Translations under genes and position numbers: made by a program | Part shown: positions 24 to 11,758 of the stretch, piece after piece | How the letters are laid out: each line of letters opens with the position of its first letter | Numbering within the stretch: the stretch's first letter is position 1 | NCBI GenBank assembly: GCA_035528375.1 | Contig: DATKYS010000045.1 | Location: 1 to 18,924 of the forward strand | Direction of reading: 5' to 3' | Source: a bacterium | Lineage (GTDB): Bacteria > RBG-13-66-14 | DNA: 18,924 nt | Notes under the pieces: generated by a model | The model's input: only the letters and a program-made list of their open reading frames with translations | The model's database searches: none | What the model was told of the DNA's origin: nothing

Positions 24-58
24 GGGCCGACCTAAAGGTCGGCCCCTACATTATCGCA
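24..58 (+). repeat. hairpin repeat with conserved tail, copy 1
   Basis: Stem arms GGGCCGACC (24-32) and GGTCGGCCC (37-45) enclose the loop TAAA and are followed by the tail CTACATTATCGCA (46-58). The same tail follows hairpins with different stem sequences at 8237, 8278 and 8423, and in reverse orientation at 3569 and 11537. No T-tract follows the stem, so it does not look like a simple terminator. The G/T-rich tract at 1-23 just upstream shows no other recognisable feature. Confidence 0.7.
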
Positions 59-96
59 GCGATGTGTGAACCGACCGTTGTGCATCGTCTCATTTA

Positions 97-125
97 AATT
101 CCCCGGTTTACAGCCCGGGATTTTT
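97..125 (+). terminator. candidate rho-independent terminator of a gene left of the window
   Basis: CCCGG (102-106) pairs with CCGGG (115-119). The stem can be extended by AAAT/ATTT pairs, and five T follow (121-125). It lies upstream of iorA, so it would end transcription of a gene outside the window. It overlaps the only visible promoter candidate for iorA, so one of the two readings may be wrong. Confidence 0.5.
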
Positions 126-135
126 ATCCTAGACT
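107..135 (+). promoter_or_regulatory. weak sigma70-like promoter candidate for iorAB
   Basis: TTTACA (107-112) and TAGACT (130-135) are separated by 17 bp, which puts transcription start near 142 and gives a leader of about 35 nt to the iorA ATG. The match to consensus is only moderate, and the -35 box lies in the loop of the candidate terminator at 97-125. Confidence 0.3.
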
Positions 136-176
136 CGCCCGCGTAGTTCTATGGCTTTTTTAAAAAGAGGCGCCAG

Positions 177-2072
177 ATGGCCGAGCCGACCTCACTCTAC
201 ACCGCGCCCGCCGGGAAGCGCGAGCTCCTGATGGGCAACTACGCCCTGGTCCGCGGGATGTTCGAGGCCGGGGTCCGCGTGGCGACAACCTACCCCGGCT
301 CGCCCACCCCGGAGATCGCCCGGGCCATCCTGGACGCCCACGCGCCGAGCCTCTTCTTCGAGTATTCGACCAACGAGATAGTGGCGACGGAGTTCGCCCT
401 CGGGGCGGCGCTGGCCGGCCACCCCAGCGTGGTGTTCATGAAGAGCGTCGGGCTGAACGTGGCCTCGGACGCCGTGGTCCAGCTCCCGCTCTACGAGCTG
501 CCCGGCGGGATGGTGGTAATCGTCGGCGACGACCCCGCCGCCTACTCCTCGCAGAACGAGCAGGACGACCGCCATTTCCCCCGGATGGCCTACATCCCCA
601 TGCTCGAGCCCTCGGACGCCCCCGAGGCCAAGGCGATGTTCAAATGGGCCGTCGAGAAGGCGCGGGAGCACCGGACGGCGGTCCTGATCCGGGTGACCAC
701 CCGTGTGTGCCACGCCACGATGGAGGTGGAGCTCGGCCCGCTGCCGGATAATCTTCCCGAGCCCGAGGGGGTGCCCAAGCGCATCCAGGTGCCCATCGCC
801 AAGGATTTTCTGGTGATGAAGCGGCGGGCGCTGGAGCGGCTGGATATTTTCGAAAAATACGCCGAGGAGGGACCGTGGAACCGGACGGTCGAGGCGCCGG
901 GCGAGGACGTCGGCTTCGGGATAATCACCGGCGGCGCGGCCTACCTCAACACCCGGACCGCCCTCGACCTCCTGGGCCGGGGGGCGCACATCTTCAAGCT
1001 CGGCCTCTCCTACCCCCTGCCGCGGAAGAGGCTGGTCGAGTTCTGCAAGGCCCGCGGCGAGGTCCTGGTTATCGAGGAGCTGGACCCGGTGGTGGAGACC
1101 GAGCTCAAGGCGCTGGCCTACGAGGAGGGTCTGGGTACGAAAATAACCGGCCTGGGCAAGAAGCTCCGCTCGGGCGACGGCGCTTTCGAGGCCCACCTGG
1201 GCGAGCTGGACCCGGGACGCATCGCGGAATTTTTGGCCGAAAGGCTCGGGCGGGAGTATCCTTTGGAAGTACTGGATTTGGCGGATAAAGCGCCGGCGCG
1301 CCTGCCGCAGCTCTGTCCCGGCTGCGGCCACCGCTCCGCCGTCTACGGCACGAAGATGGCCGTGGGCCTGCACGGGCACCCCCAGGCCGACATCGGCTGC
1401 CACACCATGAGCTACTTCCCGCCCTACGAGCTGGGGGAGAGCCTGGTGTGCATGGGGGCCGGCCCCAGCGTGGCCCAGGGCGTGGGGCACGTCCTGCCCG
1501 AGGGCAAGGTGACTTCCTTTTTGGGCGACTCGACCTTCTTCCACGCCGGCATACCGGGGCTCATAAACGCCGTCTGGAACGATCACGACGTGACGGTTCT
1601 GTTGATGGACAACGAGATAACGGCCATGACCGGCCACCAGCCCAACCCCCGGTCGGGCCGGAACCGGGAGGGCCCGCGGCCGGCCATTGACCCCAAGGCC
1701 GTCCTCTCCGCCATCGGCGTGCCGTACATTGACGAGGTGGAGGCCTGGGACATCAAGGCGGTGCGCGAGGCGGTGAAGAAGGGGCTGGAGTTCGACGGCC
1801 CGGCGGTGGTTATCCTCAAGCACCCGTGCATGCTCTACACCACGCGCGCCTGGAAGCGCGAGGGGAAGATGCCGCCGCCCTACCGGGTCAACCGGGACAA
1901 GTGCCGGCTCAAGAAGACCTGCATAAAGTATTTCTGCTGCCCCGCTTTCTCATTCGAGGACTCGGGCGGGGTGCAGATAAACCCGGAGCTCTGCATCGGC
2001 TGCGGATGTTGTGCACAGATATGTCCGGTGGGAGCCATCGAACAGGACCTGGAATACGAGCGCGCGTACTAG
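177..2072 (+). CDS. iorA: indolepyruvate ferredoxin oxidoreductase, alpha subunit
   Basis: IorA with IorB oxidatively decarboxylates indolepyruvate and other aryl-pyruvates to aryl-acyl-CoA in the cytoplasm and reduces ferredoxin. The protein has 631 residues, a normal family length. The N-terminal pyrimidine-binding domain starts with LLMGNYALVRG and has the YPGSPTPEI motif. The thiamine diphosphate domain (about 380-540) has LCPGCGHR, DIGCHTM and the GDSTFFHAG...MDNEITAMTGHQ region. A C-terminal double-cluster ferredoxin domain ends the protein. Its second cluster motif is complete (C606, C609, C612, C616-Pro). The first is atypical: C576, C582, C587 and C588 are present, but a Lys stands where the family normally has Cys at 579. 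The ATG at 177 follows AGAGG (166-170). The iorB ribosome-binding site starts inside the stop codon, so the two genes form an operon. Confidence 0.96.
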   Translation: MAEPTSLYTAPAGKRELLMGNYALVRGMFEAGVRVATTYPGSPTPEIARAILDAHAPSLFFEYSTNEIVATEFALGAALAGHPSVVFMKSVGLNVASDAVVQLPLYELPGGMVVIVGDDPAAYSSQNEQDDRHFPRMAYIPMLEPSDAPEAKAMFKWAVEKAREHRTAVLIRVTTRVCHATMEVELGPLPDNLPEPEGVPKRIQVPIAKDFLVMKRRALERLDIFEKYAEEGPWNRTVEAPGEDVGFGIITGGAAYLNTRTALDLLGRGAHIFKLGLSYPLPRKRLVEFCKARGEVLVIEELDPVVETELKALAYEEGLGTKITGLGKKLRSGDGAFEAHLGELDPGRIAEFLAERLGREYPLEVLDLADKAPARLPQLCPGCGHRSAVYGTKMAVGLHGHPQADIGCHTMSYFPPYELGESLVCMGAGPSVAQGVGHVLPEGKVTSFLGDSTFFHAGIPGLINAVWNDHDVTVLLMDNEITAMTGHQPNPRSGRNREGPRPAIDPKAVLSAIGVPYIDEVEAWDIKAVREAVKKGLEFDGPAVVILKHPCMLYTTRAWKREGKMPPPYRVNRDKCRLKKTCIKYFCCPAFSFEDSGGVQINPELCIGCGCCAQICPVGAIEQDLEYERAY

Positions 2073-2084
2073 GAGGTGTGGCGG

Positions 2085-2684
2085 ATGGCAGAGACCTGCT
2101 GCATCTACATCGTCGGTGTCGGGGGCCAGGGTGTCGGTGCCGCCTCCCGTGTGATTACCTCGGCGGCCGAGACCGCCGGGGTCCCGGTGAGGAGCGTGGA
2201 GACCCACGGGCTGGCCCAGCGCGGCGGTGTGGTCGTTTCCACCGTGCGCATCGGCGGGGCGCCCGATTCCAGCCCCCTCATCGTCCCGGGCGAGGCCGAC
2301 GTCCTCTTCGCCCTGGAGCCGGTGGAGGCCGCCCGCTCGAGCCGGTATCTGCGCCGGGGCGGCGTCGTCCTCATCAACACCTCGAAGATAGACCCGCTGT
2401 GGGTGCGGCTGGAGAGGGAACCTTACCCGCCGGTGGAGGAGATTATCGCCGCGTTCGAGGGGTTCGCCGGGCGGGTCATCGCCCTGGACGCCACCGCCTT
2501 CGCCGTGGAGCGGGGGAGCTGGATTTCGTCCAACGCCGTCCTGTTGGGGGCGCTGGCGGCGACCGGCGCCCTGCCCTTCGACGGGCGGCTCCTCGAGGAG
2601 GGAATAAAGGCTCAGAGCAAGCCCTCGCACCTCGAGCGCAACCTGGCCTGCTTCCGGCGCGGATTAGAGGAGAAGCCCCGCTGA
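2085..2684 (+). CDS. iorB: indolepyruvate ferredoxin oxidoreductase, beta subunit
   Basis: This is the small subunit of IorAB, belonging to the gamma-type pyruvate/ketoisovalerate oxidoreductase family, 199 residues long. The N-terminal [12 protein letters not shown] nucleotide-type loop and the [10 protein letters not shown] motif are diagnostic of the family. A start at ATG 2085 is preferred over the in-frame GTG at 2076, because AGGAGG (2071-2076) sits 8 nt before the ATG and itself overlaps the GTG. It follows iorA by 12 nt and must be co-transcribed with it. Rubredoxin 1 begins 49 nt after the stop and may share the transcript, since no terminator is seen in between. Confidence 0.95.
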
Positions 2685-2733
2685 GCGTGAATTGACGAAT
2701 CATCCCAACGCCCGACATTCGAGAGGAGTCGGC

Positions 2734-2892
2734 ATGGACAAGTACGAGTGCACCATCTGCGGCTACATCTACGACCCGAAGAAGGGCGACCCGGACTCGG
2801 GCGTCAAGCCCGGCACCGCCTTCGACGACCTGCCCGACGACTGGGTCTGCCCGGTGTGCGGGGCGGATAAGGACGCGTTCGAGAAGATATAG
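2734..2892 (+). CDS. rubredoxin 1
   Basis: This 52-residue Fe(SCys)4 electron carrier is the normal rubredoxin length. Iron ligands lie in CTICGY (C6, C9) and CPVCGA (C39, C42). The family core residues Y-(D/N)[13 protein letters not shown] and the terminal DAFE are all present. The ATG at 2734 follows GAGAGGAG (2721-2728). An in-frame TTG at 2692 would add 14 residues unlike any rubredoxin and is rejected. It lies directly downstream of iorAB. Together with rubredoxin 2 and rubrerythrin it probably passes electrons from reduced ferredoxin or NAD(P)H oxidoreductases to peroxide or oxygen reductases; that role is inferred from context. Confidence 0.96.
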
Positions 2893-2961
2893 GGTGGTGC
2901 TCGCGGGGACCGCTTCGTCCTGAAGAAAGTCCGCGTCGCGGAGCCGGCCCCGGTCCCACCG

Positions 2962-2982
2962 GATGCGTTCGAGAGAATTTAG
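2962..2982 (+). pseudogene. possible relic of a rubredoxin C-terminus
   Basis: Codons gat-gcg-ttc-gag-aga-att-tag read DAFERI-stop. Rubredoxin 1 ends DAFEKI-stop at 2872-2892, and 17 of 21 bases match. The segment lies between the two intact rubredoxin genes, where a decayed tandem copy would be expected. No CxxCG motif is readable upstream of it, so if it is a relic only the tail survives. A chance match over 21 bases cannot be excluded. Confidence 0.3.
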
Positions 2983-3131
2983 ACGCAGCTCGCGGAGTTT
3001 TTTCGGGAAGGGAAACGAGCGCCCGTAGCGGAATCGGCCACGGCGACTCGCCGGGGCGGGCCTTCGCCCGGTTTCCCGGCGCGGAACCGCGTCGCCCCAC
3101 CCCCGCCTCCTTGACGCCCGGCGAAAAATGC

Positions 3132-3159
3132 TTGCTTTTTTTGAAAAGATGGCGATAAT
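3132..3159 (+). promoter_or_regulatory. sigma70-type promoter for rubredoxin 2
   Basis: TTGCTT (3132-3137) and GATAAT (3154-3159) are separated by 16 bp in an A/T-rich island within very GC-rich surroundings. The predicted start near 3166 gives a leader of about 73 nt to the TTG start codon. Confidence 0.5.
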
Positions 3160-3238
3160 TCCCCTAGGCTCAGCCACGCATTGGGTGAAAGACGAACCGC
3201 GTCCAACCGGGGCCGAACGGTCCAGCCAAGGAGGCACA

Positions 3239-3400
3239 TTGGAGAAATACGAATGCACCGTTTGCGGTTACGTGTACAACCCCCGGCGCGGTGATCCGGC
3301 GGGTGACATCGAGCCCGGAACCGGCTTCGATGACCTGCCGGACGACTGGATCTGCCCGGAGTGCGGTGCCGACCTGGATGCCTTCGAGATTCTCGATTGA
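3239..3400 (+). CDS. rubredoxin 2
   Basis: A second rubredoxin of 53 residues, with ligands in CTVCGY and CPECGA and the same FDDLPDDW(I)CP core as rubredoxin 1. It differs at several positions (for example [16 protein letters not shown]), so it is a diverged paralogue and not a fresh copy. The chosen start is TTG at 3239, because AAGGAGG (3228-3234) lies 4 nt upstream and because translation from it begins (M)[10 protein letters not shown], matching [11 protein letters not shown] of rubredoxin 1. An in-frame ATG at 3128 lies upstream of the likely promoter. A strong terminator follows at 3422, so it forms its own transcription unit or the end of a longer one. Confidence 0.93.
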
Positions 3401-3421
3401 ACCGGAAGTTTTTTTGCGAAC

Positions 3422-3456
3422 GGGGCGGAGGCGATGCGCCGACCGTCCCCTTTTTT
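3422..3456 (+). terminator. rho-independent terminator after rubredoxin 2
   Basis: GGGGCGG (3422-3428) pairs with CCGTCCCC (3443-3450) with one bulged T. An inner GGCG/CGCC stem (3430-3440) lies within it, and six T follow at 3451-3456. It separates rubredoxin 2 from the rubrerythrin gene. Confidence 0.7.
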
Positions 3457-3507
3457 ATCCCCCGGGTGAACGATTTATGTGCGAATGCTGATTGAGAAGC
3501 CGTCCAC

Positions 3508-3538
3508 TTAACCCCCGGTCCCACCTTTCGTGTAAAAT
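3508..3538 (+). promoter_or_regulatory. weak promoter candidate for rubrerythrin
   Basis: TTAACC (3508-3513) and TAAAAT (3533-3538) have a long 19-bp spacer. A promoter is expected here because a terminator lies upstream at 3422-3456. A start near 3545 would place the hairpin repeat at 3569-3600 in the leader of the mRNA. Confidence 0.3.
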
Positions 3539-3568
3539 AGGCGGGCAGACTACAACGACCGTCCTCCA

Positions 3569-3600
3569 CGATAGTAGAGACAAGGGGTTTAAACCCCTTG
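3569..3600 (-). repeat. hairpin repeat, reverse copy; perfect 20-bp palindrome
   Basis: Half-sites CAAGGGGTTT (3581-3590) and AAACCCCTTG (3591-3600) form a perfect palindrome with no loop bases. On the minus strand it is followed by TCTCTACTATCG. That tail resembles the CTACATTATCG tail of the other hairpin repeats in this window, so I read it as the same family in reverse orientation with another stem. It lies in the rubrerythrin leader and could alternatively be an operator. Confidence 0.55.
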
Positions 3601-3638
3601 CCTTAGGCGAGAGCCTCAACCGTTCCCGAGGAGTCCCC

Positions 3639-4175
3639 ATGCACAAGATGACCGAGCAGTCCCTCTGGGCCGCCTTCGCCGGCGAGTCCCAGGCCCACAT
3701 GAAGTACGCCGCCTTCGCCGACGAGGCCCACAAGGCCGGCCTGGCCAACGTCGCCAAGCTCTTCCGCGCCGTCAGCTACGCCGAGCGCGTCCACGCGACC
3801 AATCATCTCAAGGCGCTCGGGGGGTTGAAGGGCACGGGCGACAACCTCCAGACCGCCATCGAGGGCGAGAACTTCGAGGTGGACGAGATGTACCCGGCCT
3901 ACGACGCAATCGCCAAGCTCCAGGGTGAGAAGGACGCCGAGAGGAGCATCCACTTCGCCATCGAGGCGGAGAAGATTCACGCGGTCATGTACGCCGACGC
4001 CAAGCGGTCCGTGGATTCCGGGAAGGATTGGGCCATCGGCGACGTTTACATCTGCCCCAACTGCGGCTACACGCACATCGTCTCCGGGGATAACCCCCTG
4101 CCCGATTTCTGCCCGGTGTGCTCCTGGAAGAGGGGAACCTTCAAGAAATTCTCCGGCTACGACGAGCTGGTTTAA
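3639..4175 (+). CDS. rubrerythrin
   Basis: This cytoplasmic diiron peroxidase reduces H2O2 with electrons from rubredoxin, a main oxidative-stress defence in anaerobes. It has 178 residues. The N-terminal ferritin-like four-helix domain carries the expected carboxylate and histidine ligands: E16 in GESQAHMKY, E49-xx-H52 in YAERVH, E80/E83, and E111-xx-H114 in EAEKIH. A C-terminal rubredoxin-like iron site has C139, C142, C158 and C161 (CPNCGY and CPVCSW). The ATG at 3639 follows CGAGGAG (3627-3633). The frame is open further upstream to 3492, but that stretch reads through the hairpin repeat and is not protein-like. The two adjacent rubredoxins are plausible electron donors. Confidence 0.96.
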   Translation: MHKMTEQSLWAAFAGESQAHMKYAAFADEAHKAGLANVAKLFRAVSYAERVHATNHLKALGGLKGTGDNLQTAIEGENFEVDEMYPAYDAIAKLQGEKDAERSIHFAIEAEKIHAVMYADAKRSVDSGKDWAIGDVYICPNCGYTHIVSGDNPLPDFCPVCSWKRGTFKKFSGYDELV

Positions 4176-4188
4176 TCTCGTCGGCGCG

Positions 4189-4217
4189 AAAAAAGGGAGC
4201 CGTTAGCTCCCTTTTTT
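4189..4217. terminator. bidirectional rho-independent terminator
   Basis: A6 (4189-4194), GGGAGC (4195-4200), loop CGTTA and GCTCCC (4206-4211) are followed by T6 (4212-4217). It has a T-tract on both strands and sits between the stops of the convergent rubrerythrin (+) and secreted-protein (-) genes, so it can serve both. Confidence 0.88.
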
Positions 4218-4232
4218 ATTTCCGGTCCGGCG

Positions 4233-5756
4233 TCAGCGGGCGATAACCAGGCGGCGGGTAACCTTTTCACCGGAGGCCTCCAGGACGGCGGTGTAAACGC
4301 CCGGGGCGTAGCCGGAGCAGTCCACCTCCACGGCGTGCCCGCCGGGTTCGAGATTTAACACGGAAATCCGGCGGCCCGCCAGGTCGTAGACGGCCAACCT
4401 CGCGGCGGTGCAATCGGCCGGAAGGGCGTATTCAAGCGTCACGACGGCCCCGGCCGGGTCGGGGTAGGGTGCGTTAAGCACCGGACGGGCGAGGACGTCT
4501 CCATCGACCCGCACCTCCACCGGACCCACGCGGAAGGAATCCCCGCCCGGCGGCGTCACGGAGAGGGAGTAGCGGTACACGCCGGGGCCGGGGAGGTTCC
4601 GGTCCAGGTATCTGTACTCGGCGTCGCCGGAAAGACTCGCCAGCTCTTCGCCGTCGCGCTCCAGCGTCCAGCTCGACCCCGCGAGCCCGGCCTCCTCGAC
4701 CCAGGACGCGAGGACGCCGTCGTCGGTCGCCCGTCCCTGGAGGTTGACGACGGGGGCATCCGAATGCCAGTCGTTGTAGAAAGAGACCATTCCCCACGAA
4801 TATTCGGAGAGTCCTTTCCGCCCTATGATAAAGATTTTTCCATCCTGGCGGAAAACGCACGAAGCCTCTTCCAGGTTATCCCAGCTCTTGTACTGCTCTC
4901 CGTACCAATCCCCCTGGCAGTTTTTGTAATAGAACATTATGTCGGTGGCGACGATAGGACCGTCAGCGTCGGCGAAGAGCTGGGGGTGGTTGATGTTGTA
5001 CTGATCGGTCGCAAGGTACTCGTCAACCGGCTCGTCGGATACGGTGTCGGTGATTACGTGCAGCTCATGGTTCGCGTTGACGTAGGCGATATACACCGTT
5101 CCATCCTCGGTGACCCACCCCTCGGCCTCACTGCCCGCTCCGATGTAGTAGTCGGTGGAGCCCACACCTACTTCGATGAGTCTATAGTACACGCCGAACC
5201 TGCCGAAGACGAAAACCCCCAGGTCCGGCCAGTACACGTGTGATACGTCGCCGTCGCACCCATCCCATTCGGCATACGTTTCTACGTCGTTGCCCGATAC
5301 ATAGGCGGTGTACAGGGTACCGTAGGATTCGAAGGCGAAGGCGGACGGGTAGTTGTACAGCGGACAGAAATCGTGGTAGTTGTCTATGTCCCAGGTGATG
5401 CCGGTGTCGTAGGATGAAGATCCATTGTAGAGCATCATTCGGTTCCCATCGCTGTATATGGCCCAAAAACTCCCCCCGTCACTATCAATGGCAAAAACAT
5501 AATAGGTGGGCGTATCGAATAAATCTCCTACTTCGCCCCAGCTAATCCCATCCCCCTCGTACCGGTAACGGTAGCCACCGTGCTCAATCACGACTACGCG
5601 CCAGGTGGAACCCCCGTGGTAAACCGCGGGTCCGGCGTACGGTGCGTAATCCCAGAGAAACTCAGTGAGGATGGAGTAATTCCATGAGCCAAAGGCCGGC
5701 GTCAGGCCGAGGAGCGCCAGAACCGGCAGAATAAAACGCTTTAGAATGCTGGACAT
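4233..5756 (-). CDS. secreted beta-rich protein with C-terminal sorting domain
   Basis: 507 residues. An N-terminal signal peptide (SSILKRFILPVLALLGLTPAFGS) is followed by about 340 residues rich in Tyr, Trp, Gly and Asp, with repeated short strand-turn patterns such as DGTVYIAYVN and DGKIFIIGRKG. These suggest a beta-propeller-like fold, but I recognise no specific family. Residues about 370-430 look like an Ig/fibronectin III-type domain. The last 75 residues (from NAPYPDPAGAVVTLEYALP through YDLAGRRIS to GVYTAVLEASGEKVTRRLVIAR) match the pattern of type IX secretion (Por) sorting/FlgD-like C-terminal domains. ATG 5756 is chosen because AAGGAGG (minus strand, 5762-5768) precedes it by 5 nt and the signal peptide begins there. 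The longer frame to 5888 would run over the promoter. Function unknown; extracellular or surface location is inferred. Confidence 0.85.
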   Translation of the reverse strand: MSSILKRFILPVLALLGLTPAFGSWNYSILTEFLWDYAPYAGPAVYHGGSTWRVVVIEHGGYRYRYEGDGISWGEVGDLFDTPTYYVFAIDSDGGSFWAIYSDGNRMMLYNGSSSYDTGITWDIDNYHDFCPLYNYPSAFAFESYGTLYTAYVSGNDVETYAEWDGCDGDVSHVYWPDLGVFVFGRFGVYYRLIEVGVGSTDYYIGAGSEAEGWVTEDGTVYIAYVNANHELHVITDTVSDEPVDEYLATDQYNINHPQLFADADGPIVATDIMFYYKNCQGDWYGEQYKSWDNLEEASCVFRQDGKIFIIGRKGLSEYSWGMVSFYNDWHSDAPVVNLQGRATDDGVLASWVEEAGLAGSSWTLERDGEELASLSGDAEYRYLDRNLPGPGVYRYSLSVTPPGGDSFRVGPVEVRVDGDVLARPVLNAPYPDPAGAVVTLEYALPADCTAARLAVYDLAGRRISVLNLEPGGHAVEVDCSGYAPGVYTAVLEASGEKVTRRLVIAR

Positions 5757-5780
5757 CTCCGCCTCCTTTTCCACATCCAT

Positions 5781-5809
5781 AAAATAGTACACTGACGGGG
5801 CGCTGTCAA
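5781..5809 (-). promoter_or_regulatory. strong sigma70-type promoter for the secreted protein
   Basis: On the minus strand, TTGACA (5804-5809) is a perfect -35 box and TATTTT (5781-5786) is the -10 box, with a 17-bp spacer. Transcription would start near 5775, about 20 nt before the ATG at 5756. It is back to back with the promoter at 5838-5846. Confidence 0.75.
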
Positions 5810-5837
5810 CACGACTCCCCGGAGGCGGGCTCGGGGA

Positions 5838-5846
5838 TGGTATAAT
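5838..5846 (+). promoter_or_regulatory. extended -10 promoter for the membrane/TPR protein
   Basis: TGGTATAAT (5838-5846) is a perfect extended -10 element (TGnTATAAT). No good -35 box is present. Transcription would start near 5853, about 25 nt before the ATG at 5878. Confidence 0.6.
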
Positions 5847-5877
5847 TCTTCTTTCAACGCCATCCGACGGTCGTTCC

Positions 5878-8172
5878 ATGAGCTTCAAAGCCTACCGCTG
5901 GGTCGAGGATCGGGTCGTCCGGCTGCTGGACTACTTCGAGTCGGCACCCGTCACCCTCGGGCGTGCGCTGGCGCTCCTGGCCGCCGTGTTCGCCTTCCGC
6001 AACGTCTTCGAGGCGCTGGCCGCGGGCTCTCCCCTCTACTACCCCGCCGCCTTCCTGGTCCACTTCCCCCTGGCCTACCTGCCCGGCATCGTGCTCATAC
6101 CGCTGGTCCTGGCGGCGCTCTCCGGCGAGCGGGTGGAGCGGGTGACCAAGGTGCTCGTCGTCGCCTGGGCGCTGACCGTCCTCCCGCCGCTCTTCGAGCT
6201 GGTCGCGGGCCACGCCGGGGCGAAAATCAGCTACCTGCCCATCCAGCCCGGGCGGTTCTGGTGGAGCGTCGGCAACTACTTCAACCCGGGGGTGGAGTTC
6301 GCGGGGGCCACGGCGGGGGTGCGGCTCGAGGCGGCGCTGGGTGTGATTCTGGGCGGGTATTACGTCTACCTCAAGCGGAAGAAAATCTGGATCGCGCTGG
6401 TGAGCCTGCCGGTCATCTTCTTCGTGATGGTCAACGTCTTCAGCCTGCCCTACATCTTCCACCATCTGCTGCGGGCCTGCGGGTCCGGCATCCCGCACGT
6501 GGCGGCGCTCTTCGGCACGCGGGGGCTGGTCCTGCGGCCGGCGCTGGACCTCTCCGACTACTCCACGGCGCTGTTGGACCTGTTGTACCTGACCCCGCTC
6601 CTGGCCCTGTGGCTCCTGGTTTACGGAAGAAAAAAGCTGAAGGAGGTCGCGCGCTGGGCCTTCCGCCTCGACACCGGCGGGTACGCCCTGGCGACGGGCG
6701 TCGGGCTTTGGCTGGGCTGGCGGGCGGTGGGGGCCGGGCTTCCTCTGGACAATCCGCTGGACTGGATGGCGATGCTCGGCGCGGTCCTGGCCGTGTTCCA
6801 CGCCGCGCTGGGGATACGGATGCTGCTGCCCAAGGACGCGCCGGGGGATAAACCCTCCAGTGTAAACGACGGCCCGCTCACCGACCGGGAGCGGAGGAAC
6901 GTCGGGGTCGTCTGCCTCCTGTTGGCCGCGGGCTGCGCCGGGACGGTGAATTACTACCTGTTGGGGACGCTGGCGGTGTTCGCGGCGGCGCAGGCCTTCC
7001 TCCACCTGCGCCCGTTGAACCTGCGGCGCGTCTGGCCTCTGTCGGGTCTTTTCATCGGCGTCTCGGCGGTCGCCGCCCTGGGCGTGGGACTGGCGGCGTT
7101 CATCGGCGGGGCGGTGACCACGGCGCTCCCCGGCGCGCTGACCTGGGGCGTGCTGGCCGTTGCGGTTCTCGGCGCGGGTGTGTTGGAGCTGCGGCCGGAG
7201 GCGCTCGTGGGCGGCCTCTTCAAGGACAGGGGCCGACGCGTCTTCGCCGCGGTGACCGCATCGCTGGGAGTTCTCATTGTTATCCTGCTGCCCCAGCCCC
7301 TGTGGAGCCGTATCGCCCTGGCCGCCCTGGGAGTCGGTCTGGCCGCGCTGATTCTGGCGCGGGAGGGGATGCCGCGCTGGGCCCACCTCGCCTGGCCGCT
7401 GGGGGCGCTGGTGGTTTTGGGTGGGCGGATGGGCCTCGGCGAAGAGCCGGTGGCGTTCGAGGACCTGCCGCCCAACCCCGTCGCCGTCGCCGCGCTCGAC
7501 GAGGCGACGGACCTCGAGCGGAACGACCTTTACGCCCATGCGGCCCTCGAGTACGCCCGGGCGGTGGAGGCCGGTGACGAGCGGGCTTGGGTCCTCGGCC
7601 CCCTGGCCTTCAACCTGCGTCAGACCGGCAGGCTGGACGAGGCGGAGGCGGTCCTGGAGCGCTCGGTGGCTCTCCACCCCGCGCACGCCCCGGCCCTGGT
7701 GGACCTGGCGGCGACGAAGATCGCGCTGGGCAAAATCGCCGAGGGTGAGCGGCTGTACCTGAGCGCCCTGGGGCTCTGGCCGGACCTGATCCAGCCCCGG
7801 GTGGCCCTGGGGCGGCTGGCGCTGGACCGGGGGTTGTCGTACCGGGAGCGGGGGGAATCGGAGCTGGCCGCGGAGTTCCTGGCCGAGGCGCTGGACTGGG
7901 CTCGGGGGGCCTACGACCTGGCGCCGGGCGACGAGTCGGCGGCCGGGCTCCTGGCCGCGGTGCAGGAGGAGCTGGGCAATTATTCCGAGGCCTACGCCCT
8001 GTGGGAGAAACGAGCCCACGCCGCGCCCCTGGACCTCGGCGCCCGCATCGCCCTGGCCCGGTTGGCTCTCAATTTGGGAAAAGAAGACGAGGCGCGGATG
8101 TGGCTCGAGGAGGCCCGGTCGCTGGACCCCGGCTGCGAGGTGCCCCCGGGCCTGCGGGAACTCTTGCGCTGA
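5878..8172 (+). CDS. polytopic membrane protein with degenerate UbiA-like segment and C-terminal TPR domain
   Basis: 764 residues. Residues about 25-225 form several hydrophobic membrane segments of no family I recognise. Residues about 275-520 look like a worn UbiA prenyltransferase fold: DKPSSVNDGPLTDRE (from 324) resembles the NKPxRPLxxGxxS segment, and NYYLLG...LHLRPLNLRR resembles the YSxPPLRLKR segment. However, the Asp-rich NxxxDxxxD metal site is not there, so prenyl transfer is unlikely. Residues about 541-764 are TPR repeats (for example LRQTGRLDEAEAVLERSVALHP and EELGNYSEAYALWEKRAHAAP), which mediate protein contacts. No Shine-Dalgarno is visible before ATG 5878, but the promoter lies just upstream. 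The gene stands alone between a divergent promoter and a repeat region. Role unknown; assembly or scaffolding at the membrane is a guess. Confidence 0.8.
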   Translation: MSFKAYRWVEDRVVRLLDYFESAPVTLGRALALLAAVFAFRNVFEALAAGSPLYYPAAFLVHFPLAYLPGIVLIPLVLAALSGERVERVTKVLVVAWALTVLPPLFELVAGHAGAKISYLPIQPGRFWWSVGNYFNPGVEFAGATAGVRLEAALGVILGGYYVYLKRKKIWIALVSLPVIFFVMVNVFSLPYIFHHLLRACGSGIPHVAALFGTRGLVLRPALDLSDYSTALLDLLYLTPLLALWLLVYGRKKLKEVARWAFRLDTGGYALATGVGLWLGWRAVGAGLPLDNPLDWMAMLGAVLAVFHAALGIRMLLPKDAPGDKPSSVNDGPLTDRERRNVGVVCLLLAAGCAGTVNYYLLGTLAVFAAAQAFLHLRPLNLRRVWPLSGLFIGVSAVAALGVGLAAFIGGAVTTALPGALTWGVLAVAVLGAGVLELRPEALVGGLFKDRGRRVFAAVTASLGVLIVILLPQPLWSRIALAALGVGLAALILAREGMPRWAHLAWPLGALVVLGGRMGLGEEPVAFEDLPPNPVAVAALDEATDLERNDLYAHAALEYARAVEAGDERAWVLGPLAFNLRQTGRLDEAEAVLERSVALHPAHAPALVDLAATKIALGKIAEGERLYLSALGLWPDLIQPRVALGRLALDRGLSYRERGESELAAEFLAEALDWARGAYDLAPGDESAAGLLAAVQEELGNYSEAYALWEKRAHAAPLDLGARIALARLALNLGKEDEARMWLEEARSLDPGCEVPPGLRELLR

Positions 8173-8236
8173 ATGCGGCCGGTCGGGGAGGCTCGCCCTT
8201 GGGCCGGGGTGAGGGACAGGATCGGGAAGGTGGAAC

Positions 8237-8271
8237 GGGCGGGTGTGGACACCCGCCCCTACGTCATCGCA
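8237..8271 (+). repeat. hairpin repeat with conserved tail, copy 2
   Basis: GGGCGGGTGT (8237-8246) pairs with ACACCCGCCC (8249-8258) and is followed by CTACGTCATCGCA (8259-8271). The stem is unrelated to copy 1 while the tail is nearly the same. Confidence 0.75.
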
Positions 8272-8277
8272 TTTCGC

Positions 8278-8312
8278 GGCGGCCCGCAGAGGGGCCGCCC
8301 TACATCATCGCA
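8278..8312 (+). repeat. hairpin repeat with conserved tail, copy 3
   Basis: GGCGGCCC (8278-8285) pairs with GGGCCGCC (8292-8299) and is followed by CTACATCATCGCA (8300-8312). It starts six bases after the tail of copy 2. Confidence 0.75.
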
Positions 8313-8394
8313 ACCCACGTATGCAGCGGTCCCCCTCTCCCTGTGGGAGAGGGTTGGGGTGAGGGCTTCCTTTGAACAAAACGCGGCGGCCCGC
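8300..8394 (+). repeat. 95-bp direct repeat, unit A
   Basis: The unit begins with the tail of hairpin copy 3, continues through CCCACGTATGCAGCGGT and the palindrome CCCTCTCCC-TGT-GGGAGAGGG with its TTGGGGTGAGGGCTTCC flank, and ends in the first arm of hairpin copy 4. It matches unit B (8457-8551) at 92 of 95 positions by eye, and all three differences are C to T. Confidence 0.9.
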
Positions 8395-8416
8395 GGAGGG
8401 GCCGCCCTACACATTT
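8385..8416 (+). repeat. hairpin repeat with degenerate tail, copy 4
   Basis: GGCGGCCC (8385-8392) pairs with GGGCCGCC (8399-8406) and is followed by CTACACATTT. The tail departs from the family after CTACA, so this copy is partly decayed. Confidence 0.65.
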
Positions 8417-8422
8417 AAAATC

Positions 8423-8469
8423 GGGCTGACCTGAACGGCTCGCCGTCGGTCGGCCCCTACATCATCGCA
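8423..8469 (+). repeat. hairpin repeat with conserved tail, copy 5
   Basis: GGGCTGACC (8423-8431) pairs with GGTCGGCCC (8448-8456), including one T-G pair, and is followed by CTACATCATCGCA (8457-8469). The stem resembles copy 1 and the loop is longer. Confidence 0.7.
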
Positions 8470-8551
8470 ACCCACGTATGCAGCGGTCTCCCTCTCCCTG
8501 TGGGAGAGGGTTGGGGTGAGGGCTTCCTTTGAATAAAATGCGGCGGCCCGC
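8457..8551 (+). repeat. 95-bp direct repeat, unit B
   Basis: Second copy of the unit at 8300-8394, offset by exactly 157 bp. It ends in the arm GGCGGCCCGC (8542-8551) right at the stop codon of the ferritin-like gene. The matching second arm is missing, as if the repeat were cut at the gene boundary. Confidence 0.9.
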
Positions 8552-9025
8552 TCAAGCCCCCAAGCTCTTCCGGTACGCCTCGAGGCGCTCCACGTGCCGG
8601 TGCTCCTCCTCGATGATCCGCTCCAGCCGGTTCCGGTCTATCCCCCGCGCCACCTCCTTGACTTTTCCGAAAAAGCGGATCGTCTCGCGCTCGAAGCCCA
8701 GGGCGACCTCCACGAGCGCCGCCGTGTCGCCCGTCGCGGCCAGCCCCTTCGCCGCCTCGGCGGTGGTGAGGGTGTGGTCGCGGACGGCGGCGTCCATGAA
8801 GCGCGAGGTCTGCTCGTCCAGGGGCTTTTCCCCCTCGGGGGTCGCCCGGAGCATCTCGGAAAAAACGGCGTAGTGGACGCGCTCCTGGTCCCGGAGGAAG
8901 CGGAAGAGCTCCTGGGCCTCGGGCTTGACGGCCCGCTCCAGGGCCTCGCCGTAGAAGGCCTCGCCGGCCAGCTCTATGCGCCGGGCGACGGACAGCGCCT
9001 CGCCGAGGGTGAAGAGGTTCGACAT
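8552..9025 (-). CDS. ferritin-like (rubrerythrin-family) diiron protein
   Basis: 157 residues, almost entirely helical. It shows the ferritin-like pattern of two ExxH motifs: E48-RV-H51 in RDQERVH, and the IIEEEHRHVERL segment (E139-xx-H142 or E141-xx-H144). Further candidate ligands are E18 (RIELAGEAFYGEA) and E112/E114 (FERETIRFF). It lacks the C-terminal rubredoxin-like cysteines of true rubrerythrin, so electron supply must be external. Likely jobs are peroxide or oxygen detoxification or iron handling in the cytoplasm. The ATG at 9025 follows GGGAG on the minus strand. The gene is monocistronic, with a promoter candidate at 9061-9087 and the tRNA terminator upstream. I cannot name a narrower subfamily. 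Confidence 0.85.
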   Translation of the reverse strand: MSNLFTLGEALSVARRIELAGEAFYGEALERAVKPEAQELFRFLRDQERVHYAVFSEMLRATPEGEKPLDEQTSRFMDAAVRDHTLTTAEAAKGLAATGDTAALVEVALGFERETIRFFGKVKEVARGIDRNRLERIIEEEHRHVERLEAYRKSLGA

Positions 9026-9050
9026 CGCTTCTCCCGCCGTGGATTGACGA

Positions 9051-9072
9051 CCCCCGGAGGATAATCCGGGGG
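9051..9072. repeat. inverted repeat over the -10 region of the ferritin-like gene
   Basis: CCCCCGGA (9051-9058) and TCCGGGGG (9065-9072) are perfect 8-bp arms around the 6-nt loop GGATAA. The repeat overlaps the likely -10 box (9061-9066). It may be a repressor operator or a leader hairpin. No T-tract follows it on either strand. Confidence 0.55.
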
Positions 9073-9087
9073 CGTTTCCCGTGTCAA
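9061..9087 (-). promoter_or_regulatory. promoter candidate for the ferritin-like gene
   Basis: On the minus strand, TTGACA (9082-9087) is a perfect -35 box. GATTAT (9061-9066) is a fair -10 box at a short 15-bp spacing. The start would fall near 9054, about 29 nt before the ATG. The tight spacing and the overlapping inverted repeat suggest a regulated promoter. Confidence 0.42.
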
Positions 9088-9104
9088 ACCCCGCTCCCTG
9101 TCGG

Positions 9105-9133
9105 TTAAAAAGAGGGAACCCTCGCGGGTCCCC
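9105..9133 (-). terminator. rho-independent terminator of tRNA-Asn
   Basis: On the minus strand, GGGGACCC (9126-9133) pairs with GGGTTCCC (9114-9121) around a GCGA tetraloop, followed by TCTTTTT. The stem starts one base after the encoded CCA of the tRNA. Confidence 0.85.
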
Positions 9134-9134
9134 G

Positions 9135-9209
9135 TGGCTCCTCGGGCCGGACTTGAACCAGCAACCAATCGGTTAACAGCCGATTGCTCTACCATTGAGC
9201 TACCGAGGA
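9135..9209 (-). tRNA. tRNA-Asn (anticodon GTT)
   Basis: On the minus strand all four arms fold. The acceptor is TCCTCGG/CCGAGGA, the D arm GCTC/GAGC with the AATGGTA loop, and the anticodon arm ATCGG-CTGTTAA-CCGAT with GTT. The T arm is GCTGG-TTCAAGT-CCGGC, followed by discriminator G and a genome-encoded CCA (9135-9137). Between its promoter and the 5' end there is a strong leader hairpin (9217-9241), which is probably removed during processing. It forms its own transcription unit, with promoter at 9245-9273 and terminator at 9105-9133. Confidence 0.96.
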
Positions 9210-9244
9210 TCGCAAATCCGCTCCCCGACGGGGGAAGCGGACGT

Positions 9245-9273
9245 ATTTTGCCAGAGGGCCGGGGATGTGTCAA
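9245..9273 (-). promoter_or_regulatory. promoter of tRNA-Asn
   Basis: On the minus strand, TTGACA (9268-9273, perfect -35) and CAAAAT (9245-9250) are separated by 17 bp. It starts 12 nt after the dnaJ stop, so the tRNA need not depend on read-through from the chaperone operon. Confidence 0.62.
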
Positions 9274-9284
9274 CCCCGGCGGGC

Positions 9285-10376
9285 CTAGCCGCCGATTTTC
9301 GCGAACTCCTCGATCAGCTCGCGCTGCCTTTTGGTGAGCTTCTTGGGGATGGCGACCGCCAGGACGATGAAGTGGTCGCCGATGCGGCCGCTCTTCTCGG
9401 CGTGGATGCCCTTGCGCTTGAGGCGGAGCTTGGTGCCGGGCTGGGTCCCCGGCGGCACCTTGGCGCAGACCTCGCCGTGGATGGTCTGGGTGTAGACCTC
9501 GCCGCCGAGGATGGCGGCGGTCAGCGGTATCTCCTCCTCGGTGTAAATGTCGCAGCTCTCGCGGCGGAAGCGGGGGTGGGGGTTGGCGCGGACGCGGACG
9601 TAGAGGTCGCCGGGGGGGCCGCCGTTGACGCCGGGCTCGCCGCGGCCCGGGATGCGTATCTTCTGGTCCTCGGAGATACCGGCGGGAACGGTCACCGAGA
9701 GGGCGGTGTCCCCCTGGGCGCGGCCGGTGCCGTAGCAGGCGGAGCAGGTCTCCGCCGGAATCACCCCCCGGCCGAGGCAGTGGGGGCAGGTCTGGCTCAG
9801 GGCGAATCCGCCCTGGGACTTGGTCACGCGGCCGGTGCCGCCGCAGTCACTGCAAGTTTCATAGCTCGTCCCCGGCTTGCCGCCCGAGCCCTTGCACACG
9901 GGGCAGACGCCCGAGGCGGGGACGCGGAGCTTGACCTTCCCTCCCAGGGCCACGGTGAGGAAATCCACGCCGATGGTGAGGGTGATGTCCTCGCCGGCCC
10001 GGCGGGTGGAGCGGGCGCGTCCGCGCGCGGCGCCGCCGAAGAACTGCTCGAAGAGGTCGCCGACGCCGCCTCCGCCGCCGAAGAGGTCGCCCGGGTTGAA
10101 GCCCCGCCCGCCGAAGCCCCCGGCGCCGGGCTGCCCGCCCATGCGCGGGTCGTAGGAACCGCCGTAGCGCCGGATGGTGTCGTACTGCTCCCGCTTCGTC
10201 TTGTCGGAGAGGACGGAGTAGGCTTCGCCGATCTCCTTGAAGCGGTTCTCGGCGTCGGAGTTCCCGCTGTTGCGGTCGGGGTGGTATTTCTTGGCCAGCT
10301 CGCGGTAGGCGCGCTTGATGTCGGCCTCGGAGGCGTTCTCCGGCACGCCCAGAATCTGGTAAAAATCCTTAGCCAT
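9285..10376 (-). CDS. dnaJ: chaperone protein DnaJ (Hsp40)
   Basis: DnaJ binds unfolded proteins and stimulates the ATPase of DnaK. It has 363 residues, a normal full length. The J domain carries HPD at 32-34. A Gly/Phe-rich linker occupies about 72-115. The zinc domain has all four repeats: C158/C161 (CPVCKGSG), C175/C178 (CSDCGGTG), C197/C200 (CPHCLGRG) and C211/C214 (CSACYGTG). The two C-terminal beta-sandwich domains follow, including GDLYVRVRANPHPRFRR. The start overlaps the end of grpE by 8 nt, indicating translational coupling. No terminator is visible between the stop and the tRNA promoter. Confidence 0.97.
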   Translation of the reverse strand: MAKDFYQILGVPENASEADIKRAYRELAKKYHPDRNSGNSDAENRFKEIGEAYSVLSDKTKREQYDTIRRYGGSYDPRMGGQPGAGGFGGRGFNPGDLFGGGGGVGDLFEQFFGGAARGRARSTRRAGEDITLTIGVDFLTVALGGKVKLRVPASGVCPVCKGSGGKPGTSYETCSDCGGTGRVTKSQGGFALSQTCPHCLGRGVIPAETCSACYGTGRAQGDTALSVTVPAGISEDQKIRIPGRGEPGVNGGPPGDLYVRVRANPHPRFRRESCDIYTEEEIPLTAAILGGEVYTQTIHGEVCAKVPPGTQPGTKLRLKRKGIHAEKSGRIGDHFIVLAVAIPKKLTKRQRELIEEFAKIGG

Positions 10377-10947
10377 CGGCGCCGCCCCATCCGTCGGTCC
10401 CCTCTCCGTCGGCGGGGGACTGGGCCACCACCACCTGCGCCGGGCGCAGGACCACGTCCCCCCACAGGTAGCCGTAGGCGTGGACAGCGATGACGGTGCC
10501 GGGCTCGGCGTCGGGCGCGGGCCGGACCGCCAGGCACGCGTGGAAGCGGGGATCGAAGGGCTTCCCCAGGGGATCCATGCGCTCCACCCCCACGACAGCC
10601 AGGGCGGCGTCCAGCTTCTCGATGACCCGTAAAATCCCGGCGCGGTAAGCCTCGTCGGCGGTGTCGTGGGCGGCGGCGAGGTGCAGATCGTCCACCGCCG
10701 GCAGGATGCTCGCCAGCAGCGTCCGGTACGCCTCGGCGCGGACCAGATGACCCTGCGCCAGGCTGCGCTTGCGGAAATTGTCGAAATCGGCGGCCAGGCG
10801 GAGGTATTTGTCCCGGAGCTCCGCCAGCTCCTCCTCGGGCGCGGGCGGCCGCGGTTCCGGCTTTTCGGTCACCGGGACCTCCGCGTCGCGCTCCGGGGCG
10901 GACGGTTGCCCAAAATCCGCCGGCTCAGGCTTTCTTCTCTTCTCCAT
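10369..10947 (-). CDS. grpE: nucleotide exchange factor GrpE
   Basis: GrpE is the ADP-release factor for DnaK and works as a dimer through a long helix. It has 192 residues. The N-terminus (about 1-38) is Pro/Glu-rich and disordered. The coiled helix (about 39-85) contains ELRDKYLRLAADFDNFRKR, and LPAVDDLHLA follows. The C-terminal beta domain has GKPFDPRFHACLAV, GTVIAVHAYGYLW and VLRPAQVVV, the usual GrpE signature. Its start lies inside the end of the roadblock gene (23-nt overlap) and its stop overlaps the dnaJ start (8 nt), so all three are probably translated from one mRNA. The only upstream start with a plausible ribosome site is ATG 10947, after GAGGGAC. Confidence 0.95.
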   Translation of the reverse strand: MEKRRKPEPADFGQPSAPERDAEVPVTEKPEPRPPAPEEELAELRDKYLRLAADFDNFRKRSLAQGHLVRAEAYRTLLASILPAVDDLHLAAAHDTADEAYRAGILRVIEKLDAALAVVGVERMDPLGKPFDPRFHACLAVRPAPDAEPGTVIAVHAYGYLWGDVVLRPAQVVVAQSPADGEGTDGWGGADG

Positions 10948-11317
10948 GTCCCTCGATGAGGGGGCCGAGGTAGTCCTTCAGGCGGCGCATGGTCAAGAGC
11001 GCCTGGCCCAGGTTGCCCCCGAGGAAGACCCCCATCCCGACGAGGTAGTTCTCGGAAACGGGGGCGAAGACGACGTGGGTCATGTTCGAGGAGACGATGA
11101 TGTTGGCGATTTGGCCGTCGCCGCCGGAGTCCAGGGAGGCCTTCTTGGCGGCCAGAAGGACGCCGATGTAGGACATGGCGGCGTTGTCCACGTTGAAGCG
11201 GCCGCTGATGTCCACCTTGTCCACCATGATGCCGGTCATCTCGAACAGCACGGTGGCGAAGGCGCCTTTGGTGTCCTGAATCGCCTTCATCAGGGCGCCG
11301 CGAATCTCCTGCTGCAT
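10925..11317 (-). CDS. roadblock/LC7-domain protein
   Basis: A single-domain protein of 130 residues with the alternating helix and strand pattern of the roadblock/LC7 fold: GAFATVLFEMTGIMVDKVD, then a helix DNAAMSYIGVLLAAKKA, strands QIANIIVSS and THVVFAPVSENYLVGMGV, and a final helix. Bacterial members such as MglB usually regulate small Ras-like GTPases, but no GTPase gene is present in this window. The gene is instead the first of a three-gene unit with grpE and dnaJ. Its stop overlaps the grpE start by 23 nt, so its product is made in step with the co-chaperones. The family call is by pattern, and the link to chaperone function is inference from position only. Confidence 0.75.
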   Translation of the reverse strand: MQQEIRGALMKAIQDTKGAFATVLFEMTGIMVDKVDISGRFNVDNAAMSYIGVLLAAKKASLDSGGDGQIANIIVSSNMTHVVFAPVSENYLVGMGVFLGGNLGQALLTMRRLKDYLGPLIEGHGEEKKA

Positions 11318-11377
11318 GGGTTCCGCCTTTGGGGGAGGTGGAATTTGGTCGGGTCTCGGACCCGGTTCGTTTTACTC

Positions 11378-11406
11378 AGTATAGATTAATTCCGCCCGGA
11401 CCTTCA
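11378..11406 (-). promoter_or_regulatory. promoter candidate for roadblock-grpE-dnaJ
   Basis: On the minus strand, TATACT (11378-11383) is a good -10 box. The -35 position (TGAAGG, 11401-11406, 17-bp spacer) matches poorly. Start near 11371 would give a leader of about 54 nt. No CIRCE-type inverted repeat is seen. Confidence 0.38.
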
Positions 11407-11460
11407 GGTCGGTCGAAGGGCGGGCCCGCCGACCCGCCCTCTGGTTTTATCTAGGTTTGA

Positions 11461-11506
11461 CCCTCACCCTAACCCGTAGGCGAGCCTCTCCCTAGAAGGG
11501 AGAGGG
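11461..11506 (+). repeat. CCCTCACCC/CCCTCTCCC palindromic repeat, copy c
   Basis: CCCTCACCCTAACCC (11461-11475) is followed by CCTCTCCC (11485-11492) pairing with GGGAGAGG (11498-11505). The same module occurs in opposite orientation at about 8332 and 8489 inside the direct repeats. Confidence 0.7.
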
Positions 11507-11536
11507 GACATGGGGCGCCACGAGTCCAGGCTGCGT

Positions 11537-11579
11537 CCATGTAGGGCGGCCCCGTGGGATAAATCCCCTGCGGGCCGCC
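11537..11579 (-). repeat. hairpin repeat, reverse copy (copy 6)
   Basis: GGCGGCCC (11545-11552) pairs with GGGCCGCC (11572-11579) around a long loop that itself contains GGGAT/ATCCC. On the minus strand the hairpin is followed by CTACATGGA. The arms are identical to copies 3 and 4 and the tail matches the family only through CTACAT. Confidence 0.65.
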
Positions 11580-11708: not shown

Positions 11709-11743
11709 CCCTCACCCTAGCCCTCTCCCTAAAAGGGAGAGGG
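11709..11743 (+). repeat. CCCTCACCC/CCCTCTCCC palindromic repeat, copy e
   Basis: CCCTCACCCTAG leads into CCCTCTCCC (11721-11729), loop TAAAA and GGGAGAGGG (11735-11743). It lies just past the dnaK stop and might form the 3' end structure of the dnaK mRNA, but it has no following T-tract on the minus strand. Confidence 0.75.
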
Positions 11744-11758
11744 GAGAGGGGGCAGGAT

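Follow-up and report, generated by a model that had tools for sequence, protein, structure and literature searches.

GTAG-tagged REP hairpins and a REP-flanked RAYT gene in an uncultured bacterial lineage

What kind of element would keep both arms of a hairpin paired while the sequence of the stem changes from copy to copy, and yet hold one short sequence fixed at its foot? The question is raised by an 18,924-nucleotide stretch of bacterial DNA (the window), which makes up the whole of contig C45 in a 2.63-Mb genome of 144 contigs (a MAG). The original prediction had described a family of at least seven intergenic hairpins of this kind, and had suggested a REP-like or RAYT-mobilised element, or a protein- or RNA-binding site. 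Six of the seven that it listed belong to a single family, each having CTAC/GTAG at one foot; GTAG lies on the minus strand in five of them and on the plus strand in the sixth. The seventh, at 3569, is part of a different palindrome family. The features of the window are as follows.

24–49, minus strand: REP of class T1, GTAG-GGGCCGACCT-tt-AGGTCGGCCC, preceded by GCGATAAT (50–57)
3581–3600, no strand assigned: CAAGGGGTTTAAACCCCTTG palindrome, non-REP, 38 bp upstream of the rubrerythrin start codon
8237–8262, minus strand: REP of class T2, GTAG-GGGCGGGTGT-cc-ACACCCGCCC, preceded by GCGATGAC
8278–8303, minus strand: REP of class T4, GTAG-GGCGGCCC-ctctgc-GGGCCGCC, preceded by GCGATGAT
8298–8394, no strand assigned: unit 1 (97 bp) of a direct repeat; unit 2, at 8455–8551, is 97% identical, with a spacing of 157
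8385–8410, minus strand: REP of class T4, GTAG-GGCGGCCC-ctccgc-GGGCCGCC, without GCGATGA ahead of GTAG
8423–8460, minus strand: REP of class T1 in a long-loop form, GTAG-GGGCCGACC-gacggcgagccgttca-GGTCAGCCC, with one mismatch, preceded by GCGATGAT
11541–11579, plus strand: REP of class T4 with a 19-nt loop, GTAG-GGCGGCCC-cgtgggataaatcccctgc-GGGCCGCC

Hairpins of the window and their relatives across the genome

The CTAC tail of the original prediction, when read on the other strand, is the GTAG that heads REP repeats, and on the GTAG-bearing strand the window hairpins consist of GTAG, a perfect or near-perfect GC stem, and a loop. Predicted single-stranded DNA folds of the window copies give the same hairpins, at −9 to −15 kcal/mol. 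The stems of the six differ while both arms pair, as had been claimed; the one mismatch, in 8423–8460, is C/A when read on the minus strand, and the plus strand has a G-T wobble there. The fixed one-sided tail, given as CTAC(A/G)T(T/C)ATCG(CA), stood in its core, since YGTAG (CTACR) is general, but its ATCGCA extension is restricted to a subset of copies (in the window, GCGATGA is present at 24, 8237, 8278, and 8423, partial at 11541, and absent at 8385). Among curated structured RNAs of the Rfam type, a tRNA was the sole match in the window, the hairpins being unmatched. The window hairpins are GTAG-tagged REP elements, of a super-family and with a tag described in 2013 (PMC3733652). The units of the 97-bp direct repeat contain a REP head, a linker, and a CTCTCCC palindrome, and the repeat as a whole (8298–8551) is BIME-like, resembling a local duplication of the BIME type; no such duplication was found in the aligned region of the sister genome G001.

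A search for further copies, which the original prediction had proposed, found hundreds of them. When exact 12–14-mers were counted across the 2.63-Mb genome, with the same patterns reversed as control, there were 209 matches for T1 (GTAGGGGCSGACC; control 4), 191 for T2 (GTAGGGGCGRSYGT; control 2), 146 for T3 (GTAGGGCGGGGW; control 2), and 78 for T4 (GTAGGGCGGCCCC; control 1), or more than 600 exact copies over the four stem classes. The pattern CCCCTACATCATCGC, with up to two mismatches allowed, had 142+152 genome matches against 13+10 for its reverse. All four classes are also present in genomes of the same genus. In three genomes in which no RAYT was detected (G004, G007, and G012), class counts were at or near the reversed control, in what is a rough test with patterns tuned to this genus.

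While these whole-genome counts come from pattern searches, individual copies were read in a sample of 22 stretches (420 kb) taken from contigs with matches. In this sample a hairpin follows GTAG at 219 of 2913 sites (7.5%), compared with mostly 1–2% for other tags; the exceptions among the control tags were TAGG (11%), which overlaps GTAG, and CTAG (15/310). Full sequences were read for about 170 copies, a density of 0.40 per kb that may overstate that of the genome, given how the stretches were chosen. At −1 to GTAG, 97% of these copies have C or T. GCGATGA, within two mismatches, was found in 58 of the ~170, chiefly T1 variants and T4, and the head was seen with each of T1, T2, T3, and T4. 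After a TGCGATGAY site there is almost always a REP or the remains of one. A search for a clean empty site for the GCGATGAY head found none.

Stem pairing and the RAYT gene

Covariation was measured at sites chosen for having GTAG and the loop tip CTTYAG a fixed distance apart, without regard to the arms; a test on hairpins selected for pairing was dropped as circular in favor of this tag-plus-tip picking. The arms pair at 45 of 47 such sites in the genome itself, with 12 distinct arms. At RAYT loci of other bacteria, pairing was found at 67 of 85 sites with 8-nt arms (37 distinct arms) and at 93 of 123 with 7-nt arms (49 distinct arms), while control tags gave 0–3. An alignment of 38 elements from many phyla, which omits the two non-pairing chance sites of the genome itself and some near-duplicates, had 91.6% of its cells paired. 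Cells altered on both sides numbered 92 against 25 after shuffling, and the covariation score was 0.638, compared with 0.206 for shuffled and at most 0.156 for slid alignments. Compensatory stem changes, a further check that had been proposed, were thereby found, with the tag fixed.

The RAYT (Y1 transposase) gene that was also to be looked for is present. The genome has one Y1_Tnp gene (L002:11737–12210, 157 aa), whose product scores 109 bits to NF047646 REP_Tyr_transpos (REP-associated tyrosine transposase; cut-off 80). Its closest solved structure by sequence is TnpA-REP 4ER8, and an HxH and a YD motif are invariant among its relatives. The same hairpins stand on both flanks: a T1 REP (L002 11699, plus strand) ends 12 bp upstream of the start codon, and an inverted T1 REP (12256, minus strand) lies directly 3' of the stop codon. 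Identity as an IS200/IS605 transposon was rejected, the score there being 42.3 bits, below the cut-off of 55, and the gene being single-copy.

Similar cassettes are found in sister species. One RAYT (L058) lies between T2 hairpins and others (L061, L100, and L059/L077) lie beside T3 hairpins, all with the cassette order of L002, and these RAYTs form a clade apart from that of the genome studied here. Stem classes therefore match RAYT lineages, a match based within the genus on about six RAYT loci. In the present genome, T2 and T3 are probably leftovers of lost RAYTs, or of RAYTs in assembly gaps; gaps could account for the missing genes because the 144-contig MAG has several contigs ending in REPs. 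No cognate RAYT for T4 was seen among the loci examined.

Within 200 bp of a RAYT, a GTAG hairpin was found at 40 of 80 loci from many phyla, compared with 5–12 for ten other tags; among these 80 loci, GTAG hairpins upstream of the gene commonly share its orientation, and those downstream are commonly inverted. On the RAYT tree, loop-tip classes cluster, though not as one clade each (CTTYAG requires 8 changes, against a shuffled mean of 12.6). As a separate observation, six RAYT loci (L144, L145, L151, L161, L171, and L181), belonging to Bipolaricaulota, Zixibacteria, Chloroflexota, and Planctomycetota, have GTAG hairpins with a CGTC stem foot (GTAGCGTC...). GTAG and CGTC repeats have been described as separate super-families, the CGTC REPs being without a dedicated transposase (Di Nocera et al., PMC3733652).

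Location, turnover and possible explanations

Copies are placed between genes, as a comparison with gene ends, likewise proposed beforehand, made clear. With genes called by a simple codon-usage model, none of the ~170 named-class copies in the sample lies inside a gene (expected 141); two unclassified matches do. Intergenic regions with at least one REP were 23 of 31 convergent, 27 of 164 tandem, and 3 of 35 divergent regions in the sample, and REP density per kb of intergenic region was 6.5, 1.7, and 1.3, respectively. Close pairs (≤10 bp apart) in the sample are all head-to-head with GTAG outward (25/25), as in BIMEs.

A 20-kb stretch is colinear with two sister genomes, at 82–93% identity. 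Corresponding intergenic slots nevertheless carry REPs that differ in class, number, and direction, which at this identity points to fast turnover. Behind dnaK, the sister genomes have an intergenic region several times longer.

It is very likely that the GTAG-tagged REPs, both singles and head-to-head BIMEs, have been spread by REP-associated tyrosine transposases (RAYT/TnpA-REP, of the HUH superfamily). The original suggestion of a REP-like, RAYT-mobilised element is supported by the many copies, the compensatory stem changes, the siting at gene ends, and the REP-flanked RAYT gene. In the proposed model, the putative mobile unit of GTAG, stem, and loop would fold on single-stranded DNA, and RAYT would read GTAG, as a guide, together with the loop tip, with a paired stem required and its exact sequence mattering little. 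The enzyme would then nick next to the unit and join it elsewhere. Stems would be free to drift, each change being compensated, with no change in GTAG or the loop tip, and the stem/loop classes within one genome would descend from different RAYT lineages. With one T1-flanked RAYT in the genome as assembled, T2 and T3 resemble orphan classes, the cognate RAYTs of which would have been kept in sister species. Copies would survive where they are harmless, between genes and above all between convergent ones. Transposition of REPs by RAYT is not known to have been demonstrated in vivo.

That this RAYT cleaves and joins the single-stranded DNA of these REPs is inferred by analogy with published biochemistry. 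TnpA-REP binds the folded single-stranded REP, with GTAG serving as its guide, and cuts at CT or CA; in perfect-palindrome systems it reads bases of the loop (PMC8266576). The TnpA-REP biochemistry (PMC8266576) thus predicts stems that are paired but free in sequence, next to a GTAG and a loop tip that are fixed, which is the pattern seen here.

On top of spread by RAYT, stem classes might be exchanged in place, through gene conversion or a RAYT-mediated swap, within a shared flank (GCGATGAY before; a T run and CCCTCACCC after), although we regard this as rather unlikely. In the convergent region 8172–8552, the T2 hairpin at 8237–8262 aligns with a T3 hairpin of G001; the head is the same, CTACGTCATCGCA follows both, and the flanks are 74% identical over 85 bp. 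This one T2-to-T3 difference is a possible exchange in place, and the GCGATGA head common to the four classes fits such an origin. It is, however, the single clear case, one or both flanks are absent from most copies, and the flanks are repeats too, so that independent insertion of mosaic blocks would look alike. A more general form of the idea is a little more doubtful still: hairpins of different RAYT lineages would be swapped within conserved flanks, the stem class of a slot changing between sister species while head, neighbors, and pairing stay, and RAYT or BIME conversion would swap cassettes rather than just add copies.

It is also unlikely that the hairpins are kept as transcript ends, either intrinsic terminators or mRNA 3' stabilizers, serving both directions between convergent genes. 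The density of REPs in convergent regions relative to tandem and divergent ones would fit this, as would the occurrence of TTTT within 10 nt after the stem in 46 of 128 copies without a head-to-head partner, compared with 4% of random intergenic 10-mers. However, purging from genes and promoters accounts equally for the location, and by this measure no such T run is found in the other 82 unpartnered or the 42 partnered copies. In tandem gene pairs, T-tailed copies run 10 with the genes and 8 against; this absence of orientation bias is unlike selected terminators. Sister species also differ in which REP classes, and how many REPs, they carry at the same gene ends. Host use of the T-tailed copies, as terminators or mRNA ends, is possible.

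Sites selected for chromosomal protein binding (gyrase, IHF, or a nucleoid protein) with no transposition are a very improbable explanation, for although the siting is dispersed and intergenic and REPs/BIMEs of known bacteria have been reported to bind several proteins (PMC2817692), free stem sequence with kept pairing fits recognition of a folded single strand and not of a duplex, and hairpins stand in inverted order around RAYT genes.

Relation to known systems and neighboring repeats

A REP/RAYT system of this description is of an already known kind and not a new one. As in the GTAG-tagged REPs of Di Nocera et al. 2013 (PMC3733652), GTAG stands at the foot of a 6–13 bp stem and many loops fit TY; several families share one genome as singles and head-to-head dimers, lying between convergent and co-directional genes, and RAYT genes are REP-flanked. 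In contrast to that set, the lineage is uncultured and outside the phyla listed there, Y precedes GTAG in nearly all copies, the GCGATGA head is partial, and at least four stem classes occur with one RAYT found.

The perfect palindromes resemble those of Group 3 REPtrons (S. maltophilia, Marinomonas; PMC8266576), in which loop bases and GTAG are important for cleavage, while much stem sequence is tolerated and mismatches are harmful (Corneloup et al. 2021, PMC8266576). The fixed GTAG and loop tip and the free, paired stems seen here suggest the same pattern, though with loop tips CTTYAG or GTCYAC that are known from sequence. The E. coli TnpA-REP/REP system (PDB 4ER8), the best structure match of this RAYT, likewise combines GTAG with a hairpin, but E. 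coli REPs have a bulged stem and those described here a perfect one. A Y1 HUH transposase and single-stranded DNA hairpins are shared with IS200/IS605 transposons, in contrast to which the hairpins here are dispersed in hundreds and the gene is single-copy.

These findings assign a dense REP/RAYT system to an uncultured phylum. They also provide a natural experiment on RAYT recognition, in which GTAG and the loop tip are fixed and stems are free across many phyla, in agreement with in vitro results on other systems. The genus allows comparison of several RAYT-REP pairs, of apparent RAYT loss, and of fast turnover, and the sister genomes make REP movement testable.

A second dispersed intergenic repeat, CCCTCACCC...CTCTCCC-n-GGGAGAG, is a palindrome found in the window at 8331–8365, 8488–8522, 11458–11512, and 11709–11751. 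In the 420-kb sample there are 107 intergenic CCCTCACCC-like sites, and the repeat often lies 14–18 nt 3' of a REP stem, many REPs being so linked.

The hairpin at 3569 (CAAGGGGTTTAAACCCCTTG) was rejected as a REP member; among its six copies in the sample, a GTAG neighbor is found at the window copy only. The five relatives beyond the window include one with CTTAAG and one that is shortened, and the palindrome could be an operator or a member of another repeat family. Nearby, at 2734–3400, two tandem rubredoxin-like genes (73% DNA identity over 161 bp) are followed by a rubrerythrin-like gene.
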